Origin: a virus
Virus record (IMG/VR): IMGVR_UViG_3300031951_000544
Location: 1 to 37,236 of that record
Strand: one strand, 5' to 3'
Length of the DNA stretch: 37,236 nucleotides
The translations under genes were made by a program, and so were the position numbers. This document shows positions 14,225-36,562 of this stretch, one piece after another (position 1 is the stretch's first letter; each line of letters starts with the position of its first letter). The notes beneath the pieces were generated by a model. That model was not told where the DNA came from and ran no database searches. It saw nothing but the letters and a program-made list of their open reading frames with translations.

Positions 14225-14262
14225 GCCCCGGATTGAGCACTCCCTCTCCGGGGCATTTTTTT
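14225..14262 (+). terminator. rho-independent terminator of the rightward operon
   Basis: Stem GCCCCGGA (14225-14232) and TCCGGGGC (14247-14254), a 14-base loop, then ATTTTTTT. It lies between the DUF3310 stop and the convergent primase-helicase stop. Confidence 0.9.
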
Positions 14263-16501
14263 ACCTGCGTACTTTGTATACCCGCCGCTCACGACCGGGG
14301 CCGTTTGGCTTAATGATGTCCTCCATGATGTCGCCCGATTCCAAGAGCGTATTGAGATACTCGTTCCGATCCCGAGCCTTCATGCCTTGGCAAGCCTTGG
14401 CGAGTTGAGTACCGCTCATACCTTCTTTGCCTGCATCGCGAATGAGCTTGAGGATTCGCTTGTGCGCGGCTTCGATTTCGTTCTCTGCCACCTCGCGGTA
14501 CATGAGTTCAGCGGTGTAGTTGAATGACCACCGCGCAAGATCTGCACCCATCTTCATTACTTCAAATGTAATGACAGGGGTATGCGGGTTACGGGCGATG
14601 GCTTCGATCATGGCGAGCTTCACCGAGATCTCTGCAAAGCGCACCCAGAGATAGTCTTTCTTACGAGCGCATTGAATCTGCCATTCCTTGAGTTTGTTGT
14701 ACTCGTCAAAGGCATCGTCTTCCCACTTAACTTGGATGGGTACGACATCGGAACTCGCGACGTGCTGAATGTTTGAAAGATTACCGATGCCCACGGGTAC
14801 CACCGATGCTGCTTCAATGACATCGCGGATGATGTCTTCGGGTGGGCTCTGTCCGCCGTCGGGCACTTGGCTGTCGGGGTATTCCTCGAACGAAGGCATA
14901 AGCAGAATGCGGCTCATGGTGCCGTTATCCAGCATCTCAAACGTTAGTGCCTTGGTGAGCGACGAAGGCGTCGTGGTGCCAAAGAAGTTGAAGTTCGGTT
15001 GCTTGATGTCAAGACGCTTACGGTCTTTGTTGTCGGCGTACTCTTGGCCGTGATAGGTGCCACCGCTGCTGGAGTAAATCTCAAGCAAAGTCTTGATGAT
15101 GTCGCGCTGATGACCCGCTGCATTCTTGGCAGTCAAGCTTTGAAGGTAGAGGCCCATCTCATCAAGGTGGGAGATGCGCGAGGGGAAATCGTGCAGGGTG
15201 CGTAGAATCGCAACGCCTGATGAGAAGCGGTCGCCTGAGATGTAGTTGCTTAAGTTTGCGTCCTCCAGAATCTTCTTGACCTTCTGACGCGAGTGATCTT
15301 TACCGGCACCGGGTGTGGCCACCGCAATGGAGAAGATGTTGCAACGGGTACCAAACGAACTCATCGCGTACCGTCGCCCGAAGATTGCGCCAAACATGCA
15401 GATGGAATTCATCAACGCAAAGGTCGGCTGCGGTTGCTGGGAGCATGACAAAATCCAGCGCGTGACGCGACCCACGAGCGAGGGGCTTTCAAACCATTCG
15501 TTCGGGAAGTTGGAGCGGTTGCTCTTGGTGAACTTCTTGGTTTCGGTGAGTCCCGTCAGATCCACCCGCACTTCTTTGGTCGGATTCAGATTTAAATGCG
15601 GCGCAGGTACCCAGCCGTTTTGCTGAGCAAAAAAGTAGAGCGTACCGGCTCCGATCTTGGAGGGCGGCGACTTGCCGTAGTGATCCCACCGCTGCCGTGT
15701 CTCAAGGCTGTTGTACTTGCCGGAGGCTTGTGACCACTGGTCAAACACGATGAAGCCTTTGCCTTCGGTGGCGCAGTAGACGGCCATACCGATGCGGTTC
15801 CAATCGTCCCAAGAAAGATCTGGATTGGGTACAAACTTGAGTGCATCTTGAACGGCAGCGAGTGTACCCGTGAGGCCCTCGATGGACGTTCTCACATCCT
15901 TGTCAGGGATGATGGTTTGCTGGAGCCGCGAGCGTCTCAGGTTGGGCGGCAGGGTTTTGTACGCCGCCTCGCAAGCCTCCAGCACTTGTTGGTGCGTCAC
16001 AAGAGGCAACGACTCTAGCGGTACCTCGTGCGGCGCAGAGAAGGGCCACTGGTACGGCTTACCCGTCTCGGGGTGTATGGCATAGGCAACGAACTGTTGA
16101 CCAACCCCAAGCACTTCAATCGGGTGTAGGCTGATCTTGGAGAACGGCTCGTTGGTGCGGTACAGGTACAACGCCTTGGGGGATTTGCCGATGCGTACAA
16201 AGTCGGTCTTGCCGAGTTTCTCTTGGATGGTGTTACCGACCGCGATGGCAACGGATGAATCAAGCACATCGACATCAATGGCAACGACCTTGCCGGTCAA
16301 GATACCGACGCCTGCATCGGGCCACTTCTCCCAGATGTCAATGTGCGAGCGTGAACTATCGACCGTCGTCCAGCGTGGCATGTCAAACCACTGGCCATTG
16401 TCATACCGTCCGGGCTTCTTGGTCCCCGGCATAATCGGAACAATGGTGTAGCCTGCATCCAGCAGCTTCGCACCATGCTCAAACATGAATTGATCAGACA
16501 T
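14261..16501 (-). CDS. primase-polymerase/helicase (AEP + PriCT_2 + DUF3987-like)
   Basis: 746 residues. Residues about 10-170 form an archaeo-eukaryotic primase-polymerase domain: GILTGKVVAIDVDVLD with catalytic DVD (76-78), FVRIGKSPKALYLYR (101-115), and GQQFVAYAIHPETGKPYQWP (135-153). A PriCT_2-type segment follows at about 214-297 (LSWDDWNRIGMAVYCATEGK...GAGTLYFFAQQNGW). The C-terminal helicase, DUF3987-like, has Walker A TPGAGKD (396-402) and Walker B HLDE (445-448), then a winged helix near the end. GKD instead of GKT/S is typical of this group. It likely primes and unwinds at the fork. It starts eight bases inside the rusA end. Confidence 0.85.
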   Translation of the reverse strand: MSDQFMFEHGAKLLDAGYTIVPIMPGTKKPGRYDNGQWFDMPRWTTVDSSRSHIDIWEKWPDAGVGILTGKVVAIDVDVLDSSVAIAVGNTIQEKLGKTDFVRIGKSPKALYLYRTNEPFSKISLHPIEVLGVGQQFVAYAIHPETGKPYQWPFSAPHEVPLESLPLVTHQQVLEACEAAYKTLPPNLRRSRLQQTIIPDKDVRTSIEGLTGTLAAVQDALKFVPNPDLSWDDWNRIGMAVYCATEGKGFIVFDQWSQASGKYNSLETRQRWDHYGKSPPSKIGAGTLYFFAQQNGWVPAPHLNLNPTKEVRVDLTGLTETKKFTKSNRSNFPNEWFESPSLVGRVTRWILSCSQQPQPTFALMNSICMFGAIFGRRYAMSSFGTRCNIFSIAVATPGAGKDHSRQKVKKILEDANLSNYISGDRFSSGVAILRTLHDFPSRISHLDEMGLYLQSLTAKNAAGHQRDIIKTLLEIYSSSGGTYHGQEYADNKDRKRLDIKQPNFNFFGTTTPSSLTKALTFEMLDNGTMSRILLMPSFEEYPDSQVPDGGQSPPEDIIRDVIEAASVVPVGIGNLSNIQHVASSDVVPIQVKWEDDAFDEYNKLKEWQIQCARKKDYLWVRFAEISVKLAMIEAIARNPHTPVITFEVMKMGADLARWSFNYTAELMYREVAENEIEAAHKRILKLIRDAGKEGMSGTQLAKACQGMKARDRNEYLNTLLESGDIMEDIIKPNGPGRERRVYKVRR

Positions 16502-22066: not shown

Positions 22067-22193
22067 TGTAGCCGTTGCCCCGGCAGGGTTCGCTGCCCGT
22101 TGAGAGAATGACGAGTTCAGAATACCTCGGGTGAGAACACCACCCCTCGCCTTCGTACGTCTTGACGAAGTACTTACATTGCGTACAACGCAT
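22002..22193 (-). CDS. small Cys-rich protein, probable zinc binder
   Basis: 63 residues from the ATG at 22193. MRCTQCKYFVKTYEGEGWCS and EPCRGN contain four or five Cys in a CxxC...C...C pattern, often annotated as zinc-binding small phage proteins. The start overlaps the preceding phosphoesterase stop in a TAATG junction. The Pro/Glu-rich tail overlaps the convergent zinc-finger gene. Confidence 0.6.
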   Translation of the reverse strand: MRCTQCKYFVKTYEGEGWCSHPRYSELVILSTGSEPCRGNGYITGSERSPAPMPVAEESPRKP

Positions 22194-23191
22194 TAGAGTT
22201 TCTGCCCTCTGAACCATGCCTCACCGTGCTCTACGACACAGAGTTCCGGCTGCAAGAGCTTACCCTTGTAGAACGTGAGTACCGCAAACCCCGAGGCCCA
22301 GTTGACCGGTCCCGCTTCGGTGTAGTTGAACTGCGGACCATACGGCTCAGCCATGGTACCGGTGTCTACACCGTATCTACGGCCACGGTAATCTGACCAC
22401 GGGGTCACAGAGAGTTTATGCAGATGCCCGTGTACGTATGACACGCCTGCTTTGAGCGTCGAGTTATAGGCCGAATGGATACCGCCCGAAACAGGGCGAT
22501 GCCGAATCGTGGTCCACCCGTCCGTCTGGTTGTTGAGGTGAATGCACCAACCCGCACGCCAGCGGGGCAAGTAATCCAGCAGGGTCATGCCGGTTAGTTC
22601 TTCCAACTCGCCCACGCGGCTCGACAGGTAATTCTCAAACCGGGCATCGTGGTTACCAATGGTGCGGACTAACTTGGCTCCTGAAGCCGCTCGTTCGATC
22701 TCAGCGCACCGATCCTGCACGGCAGCGATCTCGTCCTTCATCTGCGGCTGCTTTTCCCACATGATGCGAGCGTGTCGGCTGATCCGAGCACCGTCCAAGA
22801 TGTCGCCGTTCAGCACCACCATCTTCGGCTTCAGTTCCTTGGCCAACTTACAAAACGCCTGATGCGCCTTGGTCACGATGCTGGGCCAGTAGTGGCAGTC
22901 CGAAGCCACGAGAATGACCCCATCGGTCACGGCATCAACCATTTCCGACTCGTATTTATCCTGACGGATCTTAGCTAACTCGTTTAGTTTATTTCCCACT
23001 ACGCTCTTTTGGCTTGTGGCAGCAGGGTTCCTTCTACTGCTTTCAAGGGATATGCAGTACTTCTGCTCCAATGAACGTCGCCTGTCGTAGACGGACCTGA
23101 CATCCATGTCAAAGTGCTTAGCAACTAAACTTGCTTTTCCGAACCGCTTCCAAGCCTCTATAAATTCTTGATCGTCTGTATATCTGGGCAT
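22193..23191 (-). CDS. metallophosphoesterase with N-terminal HTH
   Basis: 332 residues. N-terminal HTH-like helix (EFIEAWKRFGKASLVAKHFD, then VRSVYDRRR) about residues 9-39. The calcineurin-like core has DCH (98-100), GDILDG (129-134), GNHD (179-182), and GHLH (255-258), the complete set for a dinuclear metal site. It would hydrolyse a phosphoester, for example DNA ends, nucleotides or a signalling molecule; the substrate is not readable. The HTH suggests action on DNA. Similar proteins occur in many aquatic podoviruses. It is last but one of the long leftward operon of structural genes. Confidence 0.85.
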   Translation of the reverse strand: MPRYTDDQEFIEAWKRFGKASLVAKHFDMDVRSVYDRRRSLEQKYCISLESSRRNPAATSQKSVVGNKLNELAKIRQDKYESEMVDAVTDGVILVASDCHYWPSIVTKAHQAFCKLAKELKPKMVVLNGDILDGARISRHARIMWEKQPQMKDEIAAVQDRCAEIERAASGAKLVRTIGNHDARFENYLSSRVGELEELTGMTLLDYLPRWRAGWCIHLNNQTDGWTTIRHRPVSGGIHSAYNSTLKAGVSYVHGHLHKLSVTPWSDYRGRRYGVDTGTMAEPYGPQFNYTEAGPVNWASGFAVLTFYKGKLLQPELCVVEHGEAWFRGQKL

Positions 23192-23419: not shown

Positions 23420-26400
23420 CTACCTGCTTGAGTAGCGTCTTAGCAAGTCCTGTTCGGCATGAGTGTAGATTGGACCGCCTTTGGCTTTTTTTACGCGCTG
23501 CGCTTTGATGTATTCCTGCGCTTGCTGTTCGTTTTTTATGCCAATTGCATCTGGGTTTATTCCCGTTTGCTCCATGAAAGTAGTTTTCCAAAGCGTCGGA
23601 TGTCCCGGTTTTTTAAGAAGCTTTCCCTCTGAAGTCATGGATGACCAATGAAAACGATTTTTATCATACGGGTCACGCTGGGGTCTAATTCCTGACTTCC
23701 AAGCGGTGATGTAATCGTAGTCAGCATTTTCAGATAAGTCCGGCTCTTCACCGTACTGCTTAACAAATTCGCTGAACCAAGGGGTTTTCCTTATTTCGTT
23801 TACGATTGATTGACGCTCTGAATCAACAACACCTCCATCACGATAGCGTCTTAGCAAATCCTGTTCAGCGGGGGTGTAGACAACGCCGCCGTCGGCCTTT
23901 TTTTCAGTAGGTTCCATCCGCTTAGCGTACTTGTCGCTTAAGGCTTGAATGCGATCCAAGTAATCATCCGATGCCTTGGTGAACTCTTCTTCCGAAAGAA
24001 GTCCTTGCTCGTACTTTCTCTGAACATCAAGGTATACCTTAGACAAGGCATCTCGCTCCCGAACCATGGCGAACTGTTGCTGCGCAGTCAGTTTGTCCAC
24101 ATCAACCGGCGTGACCTTGATACCAAAGGTCTGAAGCACGGCATCGGTGGTTGTAATGGGCGATTGCGTAACCGTTTCTGCTCCGGCTTCAGCGCGTTTA
24201 AATTTCTCCGTAGCCGGTGCGCCGGGGATACCGGGCAGGTTAGGAAGCAAAGATGTAATGAACTTGCTGGCTTTGATGGCTGCGTTGTTAGCGCGAACCT
24301 CGGCTTCGGTCTTGCCAATGTTTAGACCCGGCAGATCGCGACCAGTAAAAGGGTCTCTGCCTTCGTACAAAATGGTAAACCCGTCAAAGAGCGGGCCACC
24401 CGGCTGAAGTGCTTGCGGGAGAAACTCAAACCGTCGCCCCGTTGCTTCGGTGGTGGCAAACACATCGCCGCCCGGAACAAATCGTTTGACATCAAGATAC
24501 TCTGACCGCTCTTCGGTCGGTAACTTAATCATCGTTGGCGGCATACCCGGCACGCCAAACCACGTACCTTTCTGCGACTCCGGCAGCATTTTGCGCTCAA
24601 GTTCAGTATCGCCAGCACCTTCCGCTTCACCGTATTCGTTCACAGCATGCCCAAGCGCAGCCCACTTGGCGTACTTCCATGGACGCATGGCAGCAGACTC
24701 TGCAAGCAATGGCACCGCACGGTAGCTGTACGCAATAAACGGATGTGTCGTATTGCGCATGGCTTGAACAATTGGCGCATTGATTTCGTAATCAATCAAC
24801 CACTTCTTGGCTTCGGCAGCGGCATCTTCTGGAGACATTCCCGCTTTTAGCCGGTCCATGAATATGCCAAACCTGAAGATGCTGTCTTCACCTTGATAAG
24901 CATCAATGACTTTACCGCCGGTCTTTTTCCATCCAGCGTTAGCCACTCTGAACATCTTATCTATATTGTCCGTAGCCGGATTAATGGTCTCTAACTCATC
25001 CAGCATCTGCTTGCCTTCTCGGCCTAGTTCTTGAGAAGAAAAACCCGCGTCAAACACGCCAAGTTTTCTGGCTTGCTCGTATGCTTCGCTGTCACTACCT
25101 TTACGAATTTCATTTGCTGCACGCGCAAGACTTGACCAGTCTGAACCAGAAAGATCGTAGAGCATGAAGTTGGACATAATGTTGTTGACATGAACCGCAG
25201 GATTCAAAGCGGTCTTGCCAATTTTCCATGCCCTAAGCAACTGCTGATACGTTTTGAACGCAGGGTTTCTTGACAGGCTTCTTGAGAAGTCAATTGACTT
25301 AAGATCGTTAAGCACCGTTGGGTCAACGTACTTTCCAGCAAGGTTGCCAAACTTAGCGATATTAGTTCCTTTAAGTTTGTCAGTCGTGACTTGCTCAAAG
25401 CCTTCTCTAGGAACATCGCTGACGTACTGATCCATCTTAGAGATGTCGTCAAAGAGCTTATAGGTCGCAATGTCATTGGACATCAGCTGACCAGTACGAG
25501 CAATGGCAAAAGCCGCATCGTCAATTTCGCCTTTGGCCTGACGCTCTTCTTTAGTTAACTGGCGACGAACGCGAACCTTGCCGCTCTTGGAATCACCAAA
25601 GCGTTCCCATCCCTGCTCAATAAACTTGGGCAGTTCATCTTCGGTGACATCCACGACTACGCCGCGAGGCTTTAGTTCTGAGCCAATTAATCTCAGGTTT
25701 TGAGTAGCCCGCTCAATCAAACTCTGCGGCTTAAGCTTAGTCGTGTACTCGCGGTGCAAATATGTTGCAGCGTTTTTGTTAAACGTCTCTGGGCTGAGCA
25801 ACCCAACGTCTACCATCTTCTGCCCGTAACGAGTGATGGTTTCTCTAGCCCTGTTATTAAGACCAGCCAAAGACTCTACTGGGACTTCTTCGCCCTGCAT
25901 CAAGTAATAAAGAACTTTACGCTCGTTGTCCGGCAGCGTTCTAACGTCTTTGACCAAATCCAAAAAGTCCTCAGACATTTGGTTCTTGAACGTCTTGGCA
26001 TTGGCCTTAACGTCAAGATAGTCCTGCGGCAGACCATAATTATCAATGACCCCGCGAGAGAACCACTCGGCTACGTTTTGATCGCCAAGCGGAATTTTCT
26101 CTGCAACAGCCTTAGCGCCTTTTGCGCCGCCAAATCCAGCCAAGCCATAAAGGGCTGCGGCCATAAGTTGATCGCTAACTGGCGCATCTTCTTCAAGAGT
26201 TTCAAGACCAAAGGCCGAGGAGGCTGCGCCTGTGGCTACAGAAAGTGGATTGCGCTTGGCAAATTCAATTGCAGGACGACCAACGTACTCTTGATACAAC
26301 TCAATAGGCTTTGCCGCAATACCACCTTTCAACTGCTCGGGCGTCGGCTTGGGACCCATTGAAGCAGCACGAACTTCAGCATCCGCAGCCCGCTCGGTTT

Positions 26401-27058
26401 GTTTGACGGCAGAGGCATAGGTTGGGTCGATCTTAACCACATCCTCAATAGTCTTTGCGCCTTGCTTGACCAGCTTTGACTTAGGAGTAAATGGCAATGC
26501 AAGTTCGGTTACGGTCTGAGCCGTTTCCTTTGGGATTGTCCCTTCGGTGGCTTTTGATACAGGCTCTGCAACAGTTGTTTCAATCGCCGCCTCAACAGGC
26601 GAAAGCACAGAAGTAATTCCACCAAGCACAGTCTTGCCAAGACCCGCTGCCTTACCAAGCATTGTCGGGTCTTCAACCAATTGCTTAGCGCCTTCTTTTG
26701 CAAGGCCGACATTTTCAGCCACTGTCCGGCTGTAGACTTCCGGATAACTTGTAATTGGTTCAAGAGCCAACTCAGTAAATGTCTTTGGCTTTTCAGGCGG
26801 TAAACCCGAGGCAGGCTGGGGGACAACTCGCGCAAGCGGCGATTCGGTATAAGAAGGCTGAGGTTCAGGCGATGGCGCAGCAGGTTGCTCAATCTCACGC
26901 TCGCCAATTTTGGTCACTGTTACATCCGGCGCAGCAGGAGGCTGTTCCGAATAGTAAGTTTTCTTGACGTAATCAATGGCGTCCTGATTGGTCGCGCCTT
27001 CAGGTACTCTGACCTTGTAACGCTTACCATCAGGGCCGGTAACGACATACCCTGCCAT
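23420..27058 (-). CDS. large internal virion/ejection protein (1212 aa)
   Basis: The N-terminus (YVVTGPDGKRYKVRVPEGAT NQDAIDYVKK) is a motif found at the start of many phage virion proteins. Pro-rich linker to about residue 95; hydrophobic/amphipathic stretches near 130-160 and 270-330; then a long helical body with AVHVNNIMSNFMLYDLSG and NTTHPFIAYSYRAVPLL, phrases I associate with very large internal or polyvalent phage proteins. The C-terminal 130 residues hold YDYITAWKSGI...HWSSM...HPT, a motif widespread in virion proteins. Two near-identical GG-VVYTPAEQDLLRRY-like tags flank that domain. It probably enters the cell with the DNA. Exact role is inferred. Confidence 0.75.
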   Translation of the reverse strand: MAGYVVTGPDGKRYKVRVPEGATNQDAIDYVKKTYYSEQPPAAPDVTVTKIGEREIEQPAAPSPEPQPSYTESPLARVVPQPASGLPPEKPKTFTELALEPITSYPEVYSRTVAENVGLAKEGAKQLVEDPTMLGKAAGLGKTVLGGITSVLSPVEAAIETTVAEPVSKATEGTIPKETAQTVTELALPFTPKSKLVKQGAKTIEDVVKIDPTYASAVKQTERAADAEVRAASMGPKPTPEQLKGGIAAKPIELYQEYVGRPAIEFAKRNPLSVATGAASSAFGLETLEEDAPVSDQLMAAALYGLAGFGGAKGAKAVAEKIPLGDQNVAEWFSRGVIDNYGLPQDYLDVKANAKTFKNQMSEDFLDLVKDVRTLPDNERKVLYYLMQGEEVPVESLAGLNNRARETITRYGQKMVDVGLLSPETFNKNAATYLHREYTTKLKPQSLIERATQNLRLIGSELKPRGVVVDVTEDELPKFIEQGWERFGDSKSGKVRVRRQLTKEERQAKGEIDDAAFAIARTGQLMSNDIATYKLFDDISKMDQYVSDVPREGFEQVTTDKLKGTNIAKFGNLAGKYVDPTVLNDLKSIDFSRSLSRNPAFKTYQQLLRAWKIGKTALNPAVHVNNIMSNFMLYDLSGSDWSSLARAANEIRKGSDSEAYEQARKLGVFDAGFSSQELGREGKQMLDELETINPATDNIDKMFRVANAGWKKTGGKVIDAYQGEDSIFRFGIFMDRLKAGMSPEDAAAEAKKWLIDYEINAPIVQAMRNTTHPFIAYSYRAVPLLAESAAMRPWKYAKWAALGHAVNEYGEAEGAGDTELERKMLPESQKGTWFGVPGMPPTMIKLPTEERSEYLDVKRFVPGGDVFATTEATGRRFEFLPQALQPGGPLFDGFTILYEGRDPFTGRDLPGLNIGKTEAEVRANNAAIKASKFITSLLPNLPGIPGAPATEKFKRAEAGAETVTQSPITTTDAVLQTFGIKVTPVDVDKLTAQQQFAMVRERDALSKVYLDVQRKYEQGLLSEEEFTKASDDYLDRIQALSDKYAKRMEPTEKKADGGVVYTPAEQDLLRRYRDGGVVDSERQSIVNEIRKTPWFSEFVKQYGEEPDLSENADYDYITAWKSGIRPQRDPYDKNRFHWSSMTSEGKLLKKPGHPTLWKTTFMEQTGINPDAIGIKNEQQAQEYIKAQRVKKAKGGPIYTHAEQDLLRRYSSR
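23432..23905 (-). repeat. paired ~63-bp direct repeat in the 1212-aa gene
   Basis: About 23432-23494 and 23843-23905 are similar copies (roughly 80% by eye) encoding the tags GGPIYTHAEQDLLRRYSSR and GGVVYTPAEQDLLRRYRDGG. They bracket the HWSSM...HPT domain, suggesting duplication of a terminal tag by domain insertion. Confidence 0.7.
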
Positions 27059-27068
27059 AAGTTACCTA

Positions 27069-28079
27069 TTAACCTTCGTCTTCGTCAGGAAAAGGCTCTA
27101 CTGAAAAACCGCCTTTCGTGGCTACTTCTTCATAAGTAGGTTGATTAGCAAGTCTTACCGCATCTTTAATTTTTTGTTGCCTTTCATTTGGGAATGGATC
27201 GGCAAATGCAGCGGCTCTTTCTTTGTCATTAACAGTGGCAAGAAATTCTTTTGCATTTTTAATAGCAGTATCTTTTGTTTTTTGAGCAAGAGTTAAAGAT
27301 GATTTACCTGACCCGCTATATCTTGCAATAAATGATTGAGCAGCTTGTACCTCTTCAGGATTTTTGCTGCTTAACATTTGATTTGCTCTAATCAATTGAC
27401 CTAAGATACTTCGATCTTCTGGAGAATTTTTTCTTCCAATAGAAGAAATTTCTCTTGCAGCCGCGTCTTTTGCAGATTGCGGTACGCTTGGATCTTTACT
27501 GTCAACAATTGACTGAAGATCAATAATTTTTTGCGCATCAGCCTGAAGGTTTTTAGGTTTGTTTGCTTCAGCAATTCTTCTTTGTTCTTCAGCCTCATAT
27601 CGTTTTTGAGTGGCTTCATCCAACGCCTTCTGACGCTCAAGTTCTGTTTGCTTCCCAAGGATATTAAGAATGGCTTCCCGCCGCTTCAAATCATCTTGCA
27701 TTTCTTTCTCAGCACGCTCCTGCCGAGCAACGAGAAAATCACCGCTTTTCCCAGTCGGGATCGCAAACTCTCTAACAAGTTTTCCAATAATGGTTTTTGG
27801 CTCAGGCTTTGGTGCAAGAAGTCTTTGAGTGGCTTCTTCAAGTTGAGCAATATACCTATCTCGAAACGGAGTTGTACTAGCGGGCTCACGACGACGCGCC
27901 TCTTCTTGAGTCTCAGGCATCGGTTCGTAGTCCGCTTCAATAGACTCAGGAACGCCTGCCTTTCTCAAAGAGCGAGAGATTACATCGGAAAGAGGACCGC
28001 CACCTCGAATGGCTTGAGAGAGAGACGACTGAAGTGCCCCAAGACCAGTAAGGTTTTCATCCATTTCTTCGTCGTTCAT
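27069..28079 (-). CDS. coiled-coil structural protein (336 aa)
   Basis: Mostly helical and charged: an acidic start (NDEEMDENLTGLGALQSSLS), a long coiled coil (for example AEKEMQDDLKRREAILNILG, EATQKRYEAEEQRRIAEA), then a Ser/Lys-rich helical C-terminal half. No catalytic motif or membrane segment. It sits between two ejection-type proteins and the AGGCGG site precedes its ATG. About 27.1-27.7 kb is more AT-rich, with A-heavy codons, than the flanking genes, which may mark separate ancestry. A core or ejection protein like those of T7-type phages is the best inference. Confidence 0.65.
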   Translation of the reverse strand: MNDEEMDENLTGLGALQSSLSQAIRGGGPLSDVISRSLRKAGVPESIEADYEPMPETQEEARRREPASTTPFRDRYIAQLEEATQRLLAPKPEPKTIIGKLVREFAIPTGKSGDFLVARQERAEKEMQDDLKRREAILNILGKQTELERQKALDEATQKRYEAEEQRRIAEANKPKNLQADAQKIIDLQSIVDSKDPSVPQSAKDAAAREISSIGRKNSPEDRSILGQLIRANQMLSSKNPEEVQAAQSFIARYSGSGKSSLTLAQKTKDTAIKNAKEFLATVNDKERAAAFADPFPNERQQKIKDAVRLANQPTYEEVATKGGFSVEPFPDEDEG

Positions 28080-28081
28080 GG

Positions 28082-29542
28082 TTATCCGCCTTTGCCTAAG
28101 CCCTTAAGAAGGTCTAAGAGTTGCTCAATGCTTTCAATGCCGCCAAGAAGTCTGCTGAAATCAGTAGTTCCATATTCCCAATCAGTGGGTAATTTTTCTT
28201 CCTTCTGAATTTGAGTTTCTGGCAACTTGATGTTGCTCAACAAGCTGGACAAGAACTTCACCTGCTCTGCCGGGTATCCCTGCTGAGTCAAGAAGTCCTG
28301 ATACGCCAAGTCCAGATTCTTCTGGTTCATCAAGCGTTCTTTCTCGCCCACGCTTGAAACCGCAGTGCCTTCGCGGACGCCAAGTTCCTGAGCACTTTCG
28401 CCTGTTTCCAAATATCGCTTGGACAATTCCTGAAGGTTTCTTGAATCCTCCAGCGACAACTTACCTTTGGTTTCGCCAATACGCGCCAGCATTTCAGCAT
28501 CCTGCGCCGTAAGCGTACCCGTCGCCTTGCCAATCTCAAGAAGTTTGGAGGCATCGTCGGAAGTCAACTGACCTACCCTAGCGCCAATGTCCCCTATGCG
28601 AACACCGCTCTCCAGCAGACGAGCGTAATCATCGGCACTCAGTTTGCCGACCGTACCAGCCAATGCCGCAGCGCGATCTACATCGCGACCAAAGATCTCT
28701 GCCGCTTCGCCGTAGCCTGCTTGAAGCGCCTTGGCCTGCTCACCCAACACCGCCTCTTGAACGTCGCGCAATGCCCGCGCACCAAACTCGCCCATGCGGG
28801 TGCTGCCGGGGCCGACGCCAAACTGACCGGCTTGGATAAACTCGCGGCCCACTTCGGGCAAATACTTCTCGCGCAACTGCCGAGCGCCAATGTCGCCAAT
28901 CCTTTCGACGACCCCGCTGATATAGGGGTTCATGTATTCGGCTACGGCACTAGGGAACCGTTGGGCGGCTGATGACAGATATGGTTGCGCCGCTGCAACA
29001 GACGACCCTGCTCCGCCCCTCTCAATGGCCGACATGCCGGTTTCAAAGTAGGGCTTGGCTGCGCCCACAGCGGACATGTCTGTTGCCTTGCCAAAGAAGG
29101 GCTGCGCTGCCCCGGCTCCGCTCATGGACGCTGCTCGGCTGAGATCGCCTGCTGCGGCACCCATGCCGGTCATTTCCCCGGCCTTGCTAAGCGCCTCACC
29201 GCTTTGAGTCAGGAACGGCTTATAAGCGCCTGCGCCTTTCTTGATGGTCTCGAAGCCCGCTCTTTCGGTCTCGGTGAAGGGGGCGATTCTGGGACCGCCA
29301 TAGGGCGTATACGGCAGTCCACCAACGGCCTGCGCACGGCCCAGCATGTCCGTAACGTACTGGGTATACCACTCAGGTAACTGAAGAGAAGTGCTGCTAG
29401 TCAGCGTGGTCGGTTTTGGCGCATTGCCTTCAAACAAAAAGTCTACGAAGTTTTTGCCCCCACCAGAGCTACCTGTGGTGCTTGTTGGTGTGGTGCTTGT
29501 TGGTGATAAAGGATTTGCATCCGGACCTGCTGCGCTTGCCAT
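28082..29542 (-). CDS. internal virion/ejection protein with internal repeats (486 aa)
   Basis: Ser/Thr/Pro N-terminus (about 1-50), then LPEWYTQYVTDMLGRAQAVG and PYTPYGGPRIAPFTETERAG, phrases known from phage injection or virion proteins. Ala-rich repeats follow (GAAQPFFGKA, GAAKPYFETG, AAAQPYLSSA), then four copies of about 25-30 residues of the form G-x-L-(S/T)-xxD-xxx-LL-xIG between about residues 305 and 405. A C-terminal helix LEQLLDLLKGLGK-like ends the protein. Overlaps the 1107-aa gene by TAATG. Role inferred as ejection or internal core. Confidence 0.7.
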   Translation of the reverse strand: MASAAGPDANPLSPTSTTPTSTTGSSGGGKNFVDFLFEGNAPKPTTLTSSTSLQLPEWYTQYVTDMLGRAQAVGGLPYTPYGGPRIAPFTETERAGFETIKKGAGAYKPFLTQSGEALSKAGEMTGMGAAAGDLSRAASMSGAGAAQPFFGKATDMSAVGAAKPYFETGMSAIERGGAGSSVAAAQPYLSSAAQRFPSAVAEYMNPYISGVVERIGDIGARQLREKYLPEVGREFIQAGQFGVGPGSTRMGEFGARALRDVQEAVLGEQAKALQAGYGEAAEIFGRDVDRAAALAGTVGKLSADDYARLLESGVRIGDIGARVGQLTSDDASKLLEIGKATGTLTAQDAEMLARIGETKGKLSLEDSRNLQELSKRYLETGESAQELGVREGTAVSSVGEKERLMNQKNLDLAYQDFLTQQGYPAEQVKFLSSLLSNIKLPETQIQKEEKLPTDWEYGTTDFSRLLGGIESIEQLLDLLKGLGKGG

Positions 29543-32500
29543 TAAGTCAACCCTCCGCCCATATACTTATTAGGCGATTTTGCGTTTGGACTAATCCGGC
29601 CACGCGAGAGGGCGTCACCCTTATGCTTGCGGATGTTAGCACGGAATTTATCCATTCGTTTCGCCCCCTCTTTCGGAGACCCGTCGCCCAGTAGCGCCAA
29701 GGTTTCCGCATCAATTACGTACTCCCCGTCGCTCAAGAGAGCCGGGATCTTGTCCTCGCGGCCAGAGCCGGGACCGCTGACATATCGACCCCCTGCGGCC
29801 AAGCCGCCCATGGCAAATCGGTTCTCATCTTCCGGATTGACTACCCCAGTAGCGGGGCCTTGAGTCGGCGCAACCTGAGTCATCTTGTCCTCAAAGAACG
29901 TCGCCTCGGGGCCAAACCCATAGTTGTAGTAATCAATATCCGGCTTGAGCGCGGTACGCTTGATCTCGTACTTAGGCAACGCTCCGCCAAAACTGCTGGG
30001 CGCTGCGCCAGTTCCGGTTTTGCCTTTACCCGCAGAACCCGCAACCCCAAGCATACCCAACAACTTCATAAGTTTTTGGAAGTCCTCAAAGGTACCAAGA
30101 AGCTTCTTGATCTGATCAAGCGGGGATTCTTTAACCTCGGTCGGCTTGTAATCTTTAAGAATATCTTCCGGCTTGACATCAATCGGAGGTGGCTCTGGGA
30201 TGCCCAAAGGCGGCGGCGGAACTTCAGGTTCAGTTGGCTTAGTAGTCTCAATAACCACTTCTTCCAACGGACCTTGTGGTCCCGGCGTAGATACCGTTCC
30301 CGGCGGAACAAGCGGAGGCGGAGGGGGAAGCTCAGGCTCAATAGGTTTGGTAGTTTCAATTAAAACTTCATCCAGCGGCCCCCCTTCACTTGGAGGAACG
30401 GTAACTTCCGGAGGTGGTGCAAGCGGAGGAGGCGGAAGTTCCGGTTCCGTGGGTTTGGTAGTTTCAATTAAAACTTCATCCAATGGGCCTTCAACAGAAG
30501 GCGGAACTACTTCCGGAGGCGGCGGCAAAACCGGCGGCGCAACAGGCGGCGGCTCAACGGGTTTTGTTGTTTCAATGACTACTTCTTCAAGAGGCCCCGG
30601 CGGAGTAGGTTCCACAACTTCAGGAGGCGCAAGCGGAGGCGGCGCTACCGGCGGCGGTTCAGTCGGTTTAGTGGTTTCAATAACCACTTCCTCTAAGGGT
30701 TCAACCGGAGCCTTAACCGGCGGTTCAACAATTTCAGGAACTGTTGCCACAACGCCCGTCAATGGACCAGCGACAGGCACAGGCTTTGTTCCGGTAACTA
30801 CAACTTCTTCAAGCGGAGAAGGTTCTGTAGGCGCTGGTTGAGTGGGCGCAGCCGTTGTTGCTGTACCACCACCAGTCAAAGCCCCCGTTGCTGCGCCCGT
30901 TGCGCCTAACAATGCAGCGGCTTGCGGGATAGTTAAACCAAGTTTAGTTGCGGTAATGACAACTTCAGCAAGCGGAGCCGCTGCTGCCGCCCCTGCTGCG
31001 CCCGCCGCTCCAGCACCTGCCGCCCCTGCTCCAGCACCGGCACCTGCGCCCGCTCCAGCGCCTGCCCCCGCACCGCCACCTGCACCCCCTGCAAGTCCCG
31101 GCGCAAACCCAGCCGTAAGCATCGCTGCCGCAGCGACTTTGACAAGATCTTTAACGGTGGTGTCTTCTTTGCGAACAAACGCAGCCTGCGGGTCAGGATA
31201 CCCAGCCCATTGCGGCGTAGCGCCCATGCTGGTGAGTGCACGCTTGGATGCGTTTGCCGGGTCAAAGTTAAAACTACTACCCGCGTAATCCGGCGGAATC
31301 GCGTTATAGAACTGCTGCATCTCTTCTTCGGTAAACGGCTGACGCAGTTGCGACAACCAATCTGCCTTGAGAAGACGATCCGTCAGTCCCTGTTCCTTCG
31401 CATAGGCAAACGCCTCTTGGAACTTGTTGGCCTTGAGCAGATCGCTCAGCGGCTTCATCTGGTCGTAGTCTTTTTCAACCTTGGCAAGATTTGCCAAATC
31501 GCGGTTGATCTTGGCATCGACCATGCCCTGAAGACTCGGATCTTCGGCAACGGCTTCCTTGAGCGCAGAGCCAAAGATTCCTTTGTACGGATCTTTAGCC
31601 GCTTCCTTAGCCGCCTCTAGCGCACCCTCTTCGTAGAGTGAACCTTGTCCGCCGACCGCATCCTTGGCGACGTTTCGCTCATAGCGACCTACATCAAGCG
31701 GAGGGCCACCGCCAAAGGCCGCGTCGCCCACAGACATATTTCCAAACGCTTTAGGGTCAATCAGCCCCGCCATACCCATGGCTTTTGAAATGCTATTAAC
31801 TTCTTCCGGAGTCAGTTTAGATACATCAAACTCAGGAGCCGTAGTCGGCGCAGTAGATGCCGCTACTTCAGCGAGGGGCGACCTTGGAGTAATAATTTCC
31901 GTTTCGCCAGTCGGCATGATGCCTTCGGTTGATTCGGCAAGTTGTAGCGGGGAAGGCTGCGCAACAGGAGCGGTCTCAACCTGAGGCATGACCGGACTCG
32001 GAGCGGCTGGCGGTTCAGGAGTGATTGCAACGGTTTCCTCTCTAGGAATTACTACGCGCTCTTCTTCAGCCTTACGCGCTGCCTCTTGCTCTGCCGCTAC
32101 TCTTGCAGCCTCTTCTTGCTGCCGACGCGCCGCCTCTTGCTGAGCAATGCGATCTAGTTCAGCCTGACGAGCAACCTGAGCCTGACGCTCCTGCTCGACG
32201 CGAGCGGCTTCAACACGCGCTGCCTCAGCAACACGCTGCTCTTCTAACCGACGCTGCTCAGCGGCAATCTGCTCTTGCCTGACTCTCGCGGCTTCGGCCT
32301 CACGACGGGTGCGGGCTTCATCTTCAGCACGCTGAGCCGCCTCAGCCTCACGGGCAAGTTGCGCTTCTCTGGCCACTCTTGCGGCTTCGGCACGAGTTGC
32401 TGCCTCTTGCTCGGCGCGAAGACGGGCTTGTTCCGCAGCACGCATTTCTTGGGCAACCCGATTTGCTTCAGCCTGACGAGCCGCAGCCGCACGCGCAGCC

Positions 32501-32865
32501 TCTTGTCGAGCAGCCTCTTCCTGTCTCGCTGCCTCTGCTTGACGTGCGGCTTCTTGTTCCGCTGCCAATCGGCGCTGCTCAGCAAGACGTTGTGTTTGAG
32601 CAACACGAGCGGCTTCGGCTTGTCTTACGGCTTCGGCCTGACGGGCTGCTTCAATCTGCCGCTGCCGGTCCATCTCTGCCAATCTTGCCGCTTCTTCTGC
32701 GCGAGCAAACTGGGCTTCTTCGGCAGCAAGGGCTGCTCTGGCAGATGGCGCATTAACGGCACTTAGCCCCGGCTCAGCCGCTCCCTCTTCCGCTCTTCTC
32801 AGACGAGGACCATATACGGTTTCTTCCGCTACCGGCTTTTTTCCGTAAGTATAAAAACTAGCCAT
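29542..32865 (-). CDS. giant coiled-coil/Pro-rich ejection-type protein (1107 aa)
   Basis: Order: N-terminal leader (1-40); Ala/Glu/Arg/Gln coiled coil (about 45-270), probably a very long helix; Pro/Thr linker (280-345); globular helical region (345-575); Gly-Ala tract (591-630); repeats of P-L-x-E-V-V-(V/I)-x-x-T-K (631-876) with Pro-rich spacers; then a C-terminal domain with GGRYVSGPGSGREDKIPALL and EYVIDAETLALLGDGS (about 1047-1063), which I recall as a common end of phage virion proteins. GGAGGG precedes the next start, and TAATG couples it to the 486-aa gene. It is probably delivered or assembled in the tail/ejection apparatus; function inferred. Confidence 0.7.
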   Translation of the reverse strand: MASFYTYGKKPVAEETVYGPRLRRAEEGAAEPGLSAVNAPSARAALAAEEAQFARAEEAARLAEMDRQRQIEAARQAEAVRQAEAARVAQTQRLAEQRRLAAEQEAARQAEAARQEEAARQEAARAAAARQAEANRVAQEMRAAEQARLRAEQEAATRAEAARVAREAQLAREAEAAQRAEDEARTRREAEAARVRQEQIAAEQRRLEEQRVAEAARVEAARVEQERQAQVARQAELDRIAQQEAARRQQEEAARVAAEQEAARKAEEERVVIPREETVAITPEPPAAPSPVMPQVETAPVAQPSPLQLAESTEGIMPTGETEIITPRSPLAEVAASTAPTTAPEFDVSKLTPEEVNSISKAMGMAGLIDPKAFGNMSVGDAAFGGGPPLDVGRYERNVAKDAVGGQGSLYEEGALEAAKEAAKDPYKGIFGSALKEAVAEDPSLQGMVDAKINRDLANLAKVEKDYDQMKPLSDLLKANKFQEAFAYAKEQGLTDRLLKADWLSQLRQPFTEEEMQQFYNAIPPDYAGSSFNFDPANASKRALTSMGATPQWAGYPDPQAAFVRKEDTTVKDLVKVAAAAMLTAGFAPGLAGGAGGGAGAGAGAGAGAGAGAGAAGAGAAGAAGAAAAAPLAEVVITATKLGLTIPQAAALLGATGAATGALTGGGTATTAAPTQPAPTEPSPLEEVVVTGTKPVPVAGPLTGVVATVPEIVEPPVKAPVEPLEEVVIETTKPTEPPPVAPPPLAPPEVVEPTPPGPLEEVVIETTKPVEPPPVAPPVLPPPPEVVPPSVEGPLDEVLIETTKPTEPELPPPPLAPPPEVTVPPSEGGPLDEVLIETTKPIEPELPPPPPLVPPGTVSTPGPQGPLEEVVIETTKPTEPEVPPPPLGIPEPPPIDVKPEDILKDYKPTEVKESPLDQIKKLLGTFEDFQKLMKLLGMLGVAGSAGKGKTGTGAAPSSFGGALPKYEIKRTALKPDIDYYNYGFGPEATFFEDKMTQVAPTQGPATGVVNPEDENRFAMGGLAAGGRYVSGPGSGREDKIPALLSDGEYVIDAETLALLGDGSPKEGAKRMDKFRANIRKHKGDALSRGRISPNAKSPNKYMGGGLT
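30166..30699 (-). repeat. 35-36-aa tandem repeat, TonB-box-like motifs
   Basis: Five tandem units of 105-108 bases encode PL(E/D)EV(V/L)IETTKP...PPPP..., at residues 723, 758, 794, 830 and 866. Two earlier relatives are at 631 (PLAEVVITATK) and 684 (PLEEVVVTGTK). The last resembles the EEVVVTGT segment at the N-terminus of TonB-dependent receptors. Confidence 0.8.
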
Positions 32866-32872
32866 GGTTCAC

Positions 32873-33106
32873 CTAATCCAAAACCTGATAAAAGCGATAC
32901 GCCCATTCTTGCCAATCGTCATACTGATAAGGCGACGGCGGATTCTGCTGGGAAATGCCATTGATTCCAATCAATCCAGCCCCCCAATTCTGCCACTCTT
33001 TCTCAGACACAAGCTGCGGAATCGGGCCGTAGTCCTCTAAGTCAAAGACCGTAAAGTCCGCCCAATCCTTCAGGGAGTGATAACGCGGGTCGGTCAGCAA
33101 ACTCAC
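32873..33106 (-). CDS. small hypothetical structural protein
   Basis: 77 residues starting at a GTG (33106) that overlaps the stop of the nozzle-like gene (GTGA), with GGGAGAAAA upstream. Rich in Trp, Tyr and Asp (WADFTVFDLEDYGPI, QYDDWQEWAYRFYQ). Not recognised. Its place between tail genes suggests a tail accessory. Confidence 0.65.
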   Translation of the reverse strand: MSLLTDPRYHSLKDWADFTVFDLEDYGPIPQLVSEKEWQNWGAGLIGINGISQQNPPSPYQYDDWQEWAYRFYQVLD

Positions 33107-34713
33107 GGGTTTTCTCCCAGCATCGTACCCGTAGCCGCTTCGACGTGAGCAATCACTTGCCCCATCTGATAATCGCCATTGATGATGTTGCTCTCAAATT
33201 TAAATCGCAGTTCGCGGCGAATCTCGCGGAAGTACACGAGCTGCTGCTGCTTGTCCTGAGGCGTGTCGTAAATGATCTGCGGGCTACTGGTGACTTCCGC
33301 CGCCTTGGCGTTAGCGCGGCCTGTGATCTCTACCGTCATGTTACCCGACTGAACAAAGTCCGGCTCCATCATCTCTACGCGCAACGCCATATTCTGCGGC
33401 TCTTCCGACGCTACCAGCGAGAAGTCCGAGGTTTCAAAGTACGACCGAATCGGGCGAATCTGATCGCCGTTGATTTCGTTGACGCCATACTCGTGCTGCC
33501 ACACGACGTAGCCCTTTGGGTCGTTGATGATTCGGGGGTTACCATCTTCGGTCACACGCCGCTCGGTGTCTTGCGTACCACGGTATTGCACCGTCTCGGT
33601 ATCAATGATGCCGGTCATCAAGGGTGAGTTGAACACCTGCGCATATTGACCCGCAGAGCGTCCGCCACCCGGCAGTTCCGTGTCATACCACGTATTCTCA
33701 CGCACGTTGTAAATGACCGCATGCGTGCACTCAGTCGCGTTGCCCCTCGGGTAACACCACCAGATCTCGCCCCAGCGGGGAATCTTGATCGCAAAGACTT
33801 TTTGGCGCTGCGCATAGTTCAAGTTGTCGTAGAACCAGTTCAAGTTCAGTTGGTTCGGAACTTCGCGCACGACGCCGTTAAACATCAAGAAGCGGTCAAC
33901 ACCGCACCAAAAGTAAATTCCGTCGTACTCCACCACGCTCTTGCCAGAGAGAATGCTGGACTGCGAGGTAATGGTGTCAAACTGAAAAACGGCAGCGTCA
34001 CCGGTATACGTTGCACGAATCAACGAATCCAACGACCAGAAAAGCCCAGCAGGCGCGTTACCGGCACCGGCACGAAGCGGTAGACCCTTGACGATCTTTT
34101 GACTCGTGACACGCGCAGCGCCAGCATCACCACCGGTCCAATCGTCCGTATATCCCGCACGACTCCACTGCACAAAGCCATCCGAGCCATACGCAAACAC
34201 ATACGGAGCCAAGGCAACGATGCCGCCAGAGACCGTAACCGCTCCCACCAAATCTAGCGGAGCCGTGCCGTTATCGTAGCCTCGGTAAAACGCCCCATTG
34301 GCATTGGATGAAATGTCTTCAATGTCCTGCGCAACGTGCGCCAAGATTTCGTTCTGGTTGGTCGTCGTGTTGTAGGCAACGTCAAATATCCAGTTCGCAT
34401 TATCGTTGCTGACGTACCCAAGATTGGTACGATTCGTAACAATGCTGCTCGCGCCGTTCTGGCTCAGACGGAACCGGAACACACCATCCGATGTCCCGAT
34501 GTGGACGTAAGTAAATCCATTGTGGTTATGAATGTGCATGCCACGGGCAATGCCGTCCAACCGATCTTGCAGCGCACGGAACCCACCGATCTTACGCGGC
34601 AGTCCACGCTGGAAACGAACCCACTGTCCGTCAACGTAGTGGCTACCTTCAAACTTCGTTCCGTCCCGCTTGATGCCGGGATCAGAGCGAATAATGATCG
34701 GACGAAGAGGCAT
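33103..34713 (-). CDS. tail protein, probable nozzle/stabilisation type
   Basis: 536 residues. MPLRPIIIRSDPGIKRDGTK, then FEGSHYVDGQWVRFQRGLPR and KIGGF are a recurrent start in phage tail proteins. The body is beta-rich with WSLDSLIRATYTGD and VVEYDGIYFWCGVDRFLMF blade-like repeats, as in P22 gp10 or T7 gp12-like nozzle propellers. The C-terminus is beta with QLVYFREIRRELRFKFESN. Placed after the adaptor and fibre genes, it probably forms the tail tip; the exact homologue is inferred. TAATG overlap with the fibre gene. Confidence 0.7.
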   Translation of the reverse strand: MPLRPIIIRSDPGIKRDGTKFEGSHYVDGQWVRFQRGLPRKIGGFRALQDRLDGIARGMHIHNHNGFTYVHIGTSDGVFRFRLSQNGASSIVTNRTNLGYVSNDNANWIFDVAYNTTTNQNEILAHVAQDIEDISSNANGAFYRGYDNGTAPLDLVGAVTVSGGIVALAPYVFAYGSDGFVQWSRAGYTDDWTGGDAGAARVTSQKIVKGLPLRAGAGNAPAGLFWSLDSLIRATYTGDAAVFQFDTITSQSSILSGKSVVEYDGIYFWCGVDRFLMFNGVVREVPNQLNLNWFYDNLNYAQRQKVFAIKIPRWGEIWWCYPRGNATECTHAVIYNVRENTWYDTELPGGGRSAGQYAQVFNSPLMTGIIDTETVQYRGTQDTERRVTEDGNPRIINDPKGYVVWQHEYGVNEINGDQIRPIRSYFETSDFSLVASEEPQNMALRVEMMEPDFVQSGNMTVEITGRANAKAAEVTSSPQIIYDTPQDKQQQLVYFREIRRELRFKFESNIINGDYQMGQVIAHVEAATGTMLGENP

Positions 34714-35914: not shown

Positions 35915-36562
35915 TTATGCCTCACGCCGGTTCGTAGACCGGTCAACAATCTTTTGCAAATCCTCACCGTTCAACGCCGCCAGCGCACGGTCATAGTACG
36001 ACTGCCACAACTGTACCCGCTCGTCGTCTTTGACAAAGGGCGTCGCTTCCACAAGGCACCCGTACAGCAGCAGGTTCGGTGCAAACTCGGAAAGCCAATT
36101 GGTCTGGTTGGTGCTGTCCAAAAGCGGCGGCAGTTCGTAGTACAGAATCTCAACCGGATACGCCGCATTGGGCGTCGGACCAAAGATCCAATAACTGTAG
36201 TTGTAATCGGCGTAAAACTTCGGTTGAGCGGTCTGCGTTTCGTTTGGCCAATAATCCCTCAGATATTCATACGACCGAGGGTAGATGGCGACACGGGTGT
36301 TGTTCCCGCTGCCAGTGCCGATGTTTACGCTAACCGTGTCACGCCAACGATCCGGCTTGGCATAGACCGCCACCCCCGTCTGCATGGTCATGGTGACCAC
36401 ATTCTGGAAGCCCTGAATCTTGAGTTCGCGAGCAATCCGACGCTCGGCCAGCGTAATGAGCCGGGGGATCTGCTCAAAGACAATAGGGTCCGTCGCCCCA
36501 CCACGTTCAAGGTAGTTGCGGATGTCGGACTGCAAACTGGTAAATGTCATCGACGCAGGCAT
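35915..36562 (-). CDS. head-to-tail adaptor (SU10/T7 gp11-like)
   Basis: 215 residues. Starts TFTSLQSDIRNYLERGGATD, then IPRLITLAERRIARELKIQG, VAVYAKPDRWRDTVSV, and a late YWIFGPTPNAAYPVEILYYE, with a C-terminal helix. This is the helix, strand, helix pattern of podovirus adaptors that join portal and tail, such as phage SU10's and T7's gp11. AGGAGAGG precedes its ATG. Complete in length. Confidence 0.8.
   Translation of the reverse strand: MPASMTFTSLQSDIRNYLERGGATDPIVFEQIPRLITLAERRIARELKIQGFQNVVTMTMQTGVAVYAKPDRWRDTVSVNIGTGSGNNTRVAIYPRSYEYLRDYWPNETQTAQPKFYADYNYSYWIFGPTPNAAYPVEILYYELPPLLDSTNQTNWLSEFAPNLLLYGCLVEATPFVKDDERVQLWQSYYDRALAALNGEDLQKIVDRSTNRREA

Follow-up and report, generated by a model that had tools for sequence, protein, structure and literature searches.

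Putative TonB boxes arrayed on a virion-cluster protein of a phage family that includes Caulobacter phages

The 37,236-nucleotide stretch of viral DNA analysed here (the window; IMG/VR record IMGVR_UViG_3300031951_000544) encodes a 1107 aa protein, a putative virion ejection protein (29542..32865 (-), an intact ORF), in which seven copies of the pattern P-L-x-E-V-[VL]-[VI]-x-x-T-K were found between residues 631 and 876. The reading that we favour, to which we give an even chance of being correct on the strength of sequence agreement, is that the array may represent TonB boxes carried by a phage virion protein which, once ejected, would expose them in the periplasm, recruiting the host's Ton motor. 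T1 and phi80 require TonB, and both receptors and bacteriocins are known bearers of TonB boxes. The array has been filed as mimicry of the TonB box, of which bacteriocins had so far been the known examples; in the open-access literature no earlier paper was found that connects TonB boxes with virion or ejection proteins of phages, or that describes a phage-encoded TonB box, most subscription journals being outside the scope of that search. The peptides are almost identical to the TonB box, the handle that serves to open the energised nutrient gates of the bacterium; that such a handle is kept while its surroundings change, in many related viruses, suggests hooking into the host energy machinery on entry. 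A large phage family with recurrent boxes in virion-cluster proteins makes Ton-coupled entry testable with Caulobacter and phage RW, and the box motif offers a sequence handle for spotting TonB-engaging virion proteins in metagenomes.

The seven boxes and their conservation in close relatives

The copies began at residues 631, 684, 723, 758, 794, 830 and 866, in agreement with the first-pass annotation of the window, which had placed seven of them at 631-876. Its proposed motif, P-L-x-E-V-V-(V/I/L)-x-x-T-K, described most copies, the exceptions being boxes 5 and 6 (PLDEVLIETTK), and its five tandem units of 35-36 residues were also found, the start-to-start distances of the last five boxes being 35, 36, 36 and 36 residues with Pro-rich spacers between them. 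Those spacers had been said to recall TonB itself, a likeness that did not extend beyond Pro-richness.

Against a profile built from receptor TonB boxes, box 1 (PLAEVVITATK, residues 631-641, 30943..30975 (-)) scored 12.7 bits, and the most canonical copy, box 2 (PLEEVVVTGTK, residues 684-694, 30784..30816 (-)), scored 23.5 bits, a value as high as that of real receptors; this copy had earlier been compared with a segment at the start of many TonB-dependent receptors. Box 3 (residues 723-733, 30667..30699 (-)), box 4 (residues 758-768, 30562..30594 (-)) and box 7 (residues 866-876, 30238..30270 (-)), all PLEEVVIETTK, scored 7.9 bits each, and box 5 (residues 794-804, 30454..30486 (-)) and box 6 (residues 830-840, 30346..30378 (-)) fell below 6 bits and were detected by the motif derived from phages only. 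The difference between 23.5 and 12.7 bits and scores of about 8 or less led us to class boxes 1 and 2 as canonical and boxes 3-7 as IETTK variants.

The best segments of three contigs (L001, L002 and L003) were 100% identical to the window protein, and a fourth (L004) was missing one 36-residue unit and aligned without differences over the remainder. Three other relatives (L005, L006 and L007) were 64-71% identical to it and differed in copy number. Between the window and L006, 53/55 motif residues were identical vs 83/122 in the spacers, and codon pairs among ten PLxEVxIETTK copies of these two proteins were identical in 219 cases, synonymous in 244 and non-synonymous in 32. As the divergence among copies was mostly synonymous, it is the peptide that appears to be kept and not the DNA. 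Judging from these comparisons, the copies are held at the protein level by purifying selection in close relatives, and the Pro-rich spacers and copy number vary. The alignment of related phages that had been proposed as a check on the array showed spacers replaced, copy number varied and the motif retained, which is the opposite of the motif replacement named in the first-pass annotation as refuting. The likeness to TonB boxes held up in each sequence test that was run. Copy 1, PLAEVVITATK in the window, was LPTFTVTAGG in L005 and L006, which is box-like all the same.

Agreement between phage and receptor motifs

For the receptor profile, the sequence that precedes Plug domains (PF07715) was taken from five genomes, giving 55 regions; de novo motif discovery in them returned ETVVVT[AG], in most cases located 16-20 residues ahead of the Plug, and 28 receptor sites were used for the nine-column profile. 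At 9 bits or more it matched 57 sites in 37 of 50 dereplicated phage proteins (2.9 sites after shuffling), and at 12 bits or more 30 sites in 21/50 (0.4 after shuffling). Column-permuted profiles equalled the real one in 2/500 cases at 9 bits, 1/500 at 12 bits and 0/500 at 15 bits or more; the one permutation with many matches hit almost all of the proteins, roughly once each, so it probably struck a conserved domain. The reversed receptor profile gave zero matches in the phage proteins. In bacterial receptor loci there were 13 matches at 12 bits, 12 of them receptor-box-like by sequence and position, the profile having been trained on those genomes. A held-out set of 25 further proteins, collected by scanning for the neighbouring 486-aa gene and having <30% of 6-mers in common with the first set, gave 12 sites in 10/25 proteins at 12 bits or more (shuffled 0.1) and 29 sites in 14/25 at 9 bits or more (shuffled 1.6). 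Since some proteins with a score of zero had recognisable arrays (e.g. L267, five units of ATVTAQKPVEQP), the box counts are probably lower bounds.

When motif discovery was carried out on 37 strictly dereplicated phage proteins, with receptor data excluded, the strongest family was [DE]-E-[IV]-[VLK]-V-[TES]-[GA]-x-[RK], with 115 sites in 34 proteins after 14 sites belonging to a conserved N-terminal domain had been dropped. Placed in register, the nine columns of the phage and receptor motifs had a mean correlation of 0.64, a value reached by 0/2000 column permutations. The last two columns were near-identical in both motifs (T/S/R, then R/K at about 60-65%), and the weakest was the second (r = 0.39), usually Glu in phages and Thr in receptors. 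This Glu and the five IETTK variants among the window's copies count against the TonB-box reading, as does the narrow base of the receptor profile, drawn from 28 sites in few genomes.

Comparison with the box of TonB-dependent receptors of the BtuB, FhuA and FepA type ([DE]T[VI]xVTA...) covers the same nine columns in register, with disordered surroundings and a basic residue two positions after the box in both. Unlike the receptors, the phage virion-cluster protein has many internal boxes, no plug or barrel, and Glu as the usual second residue. Identity with a TonB-dependent receptor was rejected, no receptor or plug match having been found in Pfam or NCBIfam, and the search for plug domains suggested by the first-pass annotation gave no match in either database. 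Plug or TonB-family homology was likewise rejected by Pfam, PHROGs and NCBIfam.

The motif was also found in a second protein. Among 197 other ORFs of the same phages there were exactly seven sites of at least 12 bits, all in large proteins (735-1062 aa) encoded two or more genes downstream in the cluster of the box protein; their boxes included SEEIVVTATEGYP, APEIVVTAPRI and DEVIVTAKAAS, and the held-out set added EEQITVTGTRNP, AEVVVTAKPK and others. In several relatives a second large protein of the virion cluster had one box (L054:7092-10145, L041:7402-10254, L028:7921-10125, L219:6745-10092 and L235:2147-5557), and the boxes in the second proteins of these relatives include EEIVVTATEGYP, APEIVVTAPRI and EEQITVTGTRNP.

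Pro-rich and Ala-rich repeats expand readily, and the relative L004, of the window type, is short of exactly one 36-residue unit, as a low-complexity repeat with no function might be. Such a chance origin, raised earlier as a chance beta-motif repeat, is nevertheless refuted by the shuffles, the column permutations, the held-out set and the synonymous codon divergence, and we regard it as extremely improbable.

Gene context, predicted structure and the wider family

The box gene lies in a cluster together with genes for a P22-gp10-like ('phage stabilization') tail protein of 536 aa (33103..34713 (-); PHROG 3287, 3.5e-31; 49% identity to a Caulobacter phage RW protein) and an SU10-type head-tail adaptor (35915..36562 (-); Pfam PF24175, 2.9e-32). 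These two neighbours place it in a virion cluster of the P22/SU10-like kind, in which one expects to find ejection proteins, and its position, after the gp10-like tail protein and ahead of other putative ejection proteins, is that of an ejection protein. The other members of the cluster are a 486-aa protein (28082..29542 (-)), whose homologue, 28-35% identical, immediately follows the box protein in relatives; a 336-aa protein (27069..28079 (-)), assigned by ORF and position only; and, last, a 1212-aa protein (23420..27058 (-)) with no convincing TonB-box score (best 9.0 bits), large downstream proteins of relatives often having one box. The box gene was syntenic in the relatives checked, being flanked in all of them by the genes for the gp10-like tail protein and the 486-aa-protein homologue. 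The first-pass annotation had called the product an ejection-type protein, which gene order supports, gene order being no proof; from gene order only, we infer that the protein is located in the virion, packaged there and ejected. A metallophosphoesterase is encoded at the end of the virion cluster (window 22193-23191), and elsewhere in the window there is a primase-polymerase with a PriCT-2 domain (14261-16501).

AlphaFold2 models of the window protein and of the L038 box protein had mean pLDDT values of 48 and 41; both being weak overall, their helix and disorder calls alone were used. In the window protein a single long Ala/Glu/Arg-rich helix was predicted with confidence at residues 40-266 (32068..32748 (-), pLDDT about 80-93 over most of it); further on came a short stretch of helical structure (about 415-521) and a box array that was all disordered. 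In the L038 protein, disordered boxes were predicted to follow helices and a small domain of alpha/beta type, the latter at about residues 46-112. The box regions in these two models of low overall confidence had pLDDT of about 25-45 and were coil. The boxes are therefore predicted to sit in disorder, as expected of a linear peptide ligand. By sequence, a hydrophobic Gly/Ala-rich segment surrounds box 1 (residues about 571-670, 30856..31155 (-)), and DNA tandem repeats lie at 30999-31087, within its coordinates. The very long Ala/Glu/Arg-rich helix of the window protein may be listed beside the TolA-like AADKAAADAA repeats of the L069 and L057 box proteins; in L069, INVTGG motifs lie between these repeats.

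The conserved C-terminal domain (residues 1019-1107, 29545..29811 (-); LSDGEYVIDAETxALLGDGS...) was common to Caulobacter phages RW, GB2A, RLK and KcrB and to at least 552 IMG/VR stretches, of which 80 were fetched. A weak PHROG annotation of the protein as a tail length tape measure protein was rejected, the matches (2e-6 and 9e-5) spanning about 30-37 residues of this domain with no full-length homology. Distant relatives share the end domains alone, and their linkers are unrelated in sequence yet mostly contain 1-8 copies of the motif (for example DEIVVTAK, EEIIVTGNR, DKIVVTGSRIPQ, DLIKVTGSR, EILVNAR and EEIVVTGSP), with a median box-to-box spacing of 39 residues (interquartile range 35-53) in the phage family. 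Box peptides of RW gp066 include PVDEIVVTPSQP and PVDELVIKPPTT. In L267 the tandem units (ATVTAQKPVEQP.../ATVVGQK) are regularly spaced, five in number, and missed by the receptor profile.

The same C-terminal domain was joined to another N-terminal half, without boxes, in L022, L083, L092, L103, L104 and L204; relatives with the TINPxTG-type N-terminal domain (L022, L103, L104 and L204) had boxes in 0/4 cases, and the homologue in cyanophage Pag-Yong1 had none. This absence may follow the host or the type of TonB. The only known hosts within the family are those of the Caulobacter phages, and host assignment through bacterial genome contigs was abandoned, since these were mostly unreliable MAG contigs. 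A contig binned in a Bacteroidia MAG (L100) is a phage contig of the box family with three canonical boxes, and was probably misbinned. A crude pattern for the N-terminal domain was also tried as a means of dividing the family and was discarded, as the small TINPxTG class alone separated and the other classes were mixed.

The main rival to Ton engagement is docking inside the virion, according to which the boxes would attach to the portal, the gp10-like or the 486-aa protein by beta-augmentation and their likeness to TonB boxes would be a convergence on a peptide well suited as an edge strand. In the relatives checked, the box protein was always accompanied by the gp10-like and the 486-aa protein, multiple copies fit multivalent docking, and TonB boxes are recognised by strand geometry more than by exact side chains (PMC11658791). 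A generic strand, however, leaves unexplained the agreement at T-[AG]-x-[RK], columns past the box included, as well as the motif that occurs once in a different large protein from the virion cluster of these phages, and boxes are absent where the N-terminal domain is other and the C-terminal domain the same, and from the cyanophage homologue. We consider docking unlikely, while taking it seriously as an explanation.

Candidate routes of action

TonB boxes bind TonB by beta-augmentation, local structure outweighing exact side chains (PMC11658791), and this tolerance fits the degenerate copies of the phage. Pyocin S2 engages TonB through a TonB box that it brings along itself (PMC10994204), and podophage ejection proteins form envelope-spanning channels (PMC11784390, PMC11440229). 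Taken together, strand addition, the pyocin box and these channels make engagement of Ton from the periplasmic side the best explanation. According to this proposal, the box protein would be packaged in the virion and would enter the cell envelope before the DNA does, its Gly/Ala-rich hydrophobic part would associate with the membrane, and its linker, predicted to be disordered, would expose several [DE]E[IV]VV[TE][GA]xK peptides in the periplasm. The C-terminal domain of the host TonB could then add one box peptide to its beta-sheet, as occurs with receptors and colicins and as motif identity would suggest, and ExbBD-TonB, driven by the proton gradient, would anchor or pull the ejection complex; with boxes about 35-40 residues apart, TonB could take hold repeatedly, or more than one TonB molecule could be captured. 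The broader idea, that a widespread group of aquatic phages uses a periplasmically gripped, proton-driven Ton motor to pull the ejection apparatus or the DNA across the envelope, the box ladders on ejected proteins being the first phage-encoded TonB boxes, is one that we put forward tentatively, as possible and somewhat short of probable.

The ejection proteins of podophages (T7 gp14-gp15-gp16, P22 gp7-gp20-gp16 and Schitoviridae gp71-gp73) likewise cluster beside a gp10-like tail protein and are large, Gly/Ala-rich and helical, as the box protein is. No TonB box has been described in them in the literature searched, and the window protein had no match to a T7 or P22 ejection-protein family in Pfam or PHROGs.

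Colicins, pyocins and klebicins (colicin M, ETLTV; pyocin S2) similarly represent foreign proteins that bring their own TonB box into the envelope. Their box lies in an N-terminal translocation domain, whereas the phages have up to eight in a putative virion protein and singles in a second one. Identity with a TonB-dependent bacteriocin was rejected, the boxes being internal and no receptor-binding or toxic domain having been recognised. The colicin and pyocin route (PMC10994204), together with the position of the gene beside genes for proteins of the tail-tip type, could suggest that the boxes enter from outside through a TonB-dependent receptor or porin in the fashion of colicins, TonB pulling the phage tip through. 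This we hold to be quite improbable, given that the boxes lie in the interior of a long protein, which also has a hydrophobic Gly/Ala-rich segment, and not at a free N-terminus, and that no receptor-binding domain was recognised in Pfam, PHROGs or NCBIfam.

It is also conceivable, if improbable, that ejected boxes act as decoys that occupy TonB and starve the receptors, so that phages and bacteriocins dependent on TonB would be kept out or the uptake of iron and nutrients weakened. Many boxes per molecule would favour titration, and exclusion factors are indeed encoded by phages of TonB-dependent receptors, T1 and phi80 each having an annotated Cor. Such factors, however, are normally expressed and not packaged, and the few copies of a virion protein that are delivered would make a poor titrant against abundant receptors.

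T1 and phi80, to which the first-pass annotation had pointed, resemble the present phages possibly in their dependence on the host Ton system. A scan of their proteins with the receptor profile gave no convincing box, the only match over 12 bits in phi80 being GNTLTVTGV, close to the C-terminal end of its major tail protein; in proteins rich in beta structure, a single match of 12-13 bits can be false. We therefore rejected both as precedents and, since they need TonB but have no comparable boxes, the mechanism proposed here, Ton engagement by ejected boxes, would be without phage precedent.

Capture of a whole receptor N-terminus was rejected, because likenesses were short and the profile match stopped at the box; this confinement points to mimicry or very short capture. 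VVTGSRIPQ in phage L028 can be set against VVTGSRIPQVG in receptor L165, and the phage sequence KIVVTGSRIPQGGLDS is close to the receptor sequence TVVVTGSRIPQVGLYS, a likeness that, as compared here, may reflect a short capture and not pure convergence.
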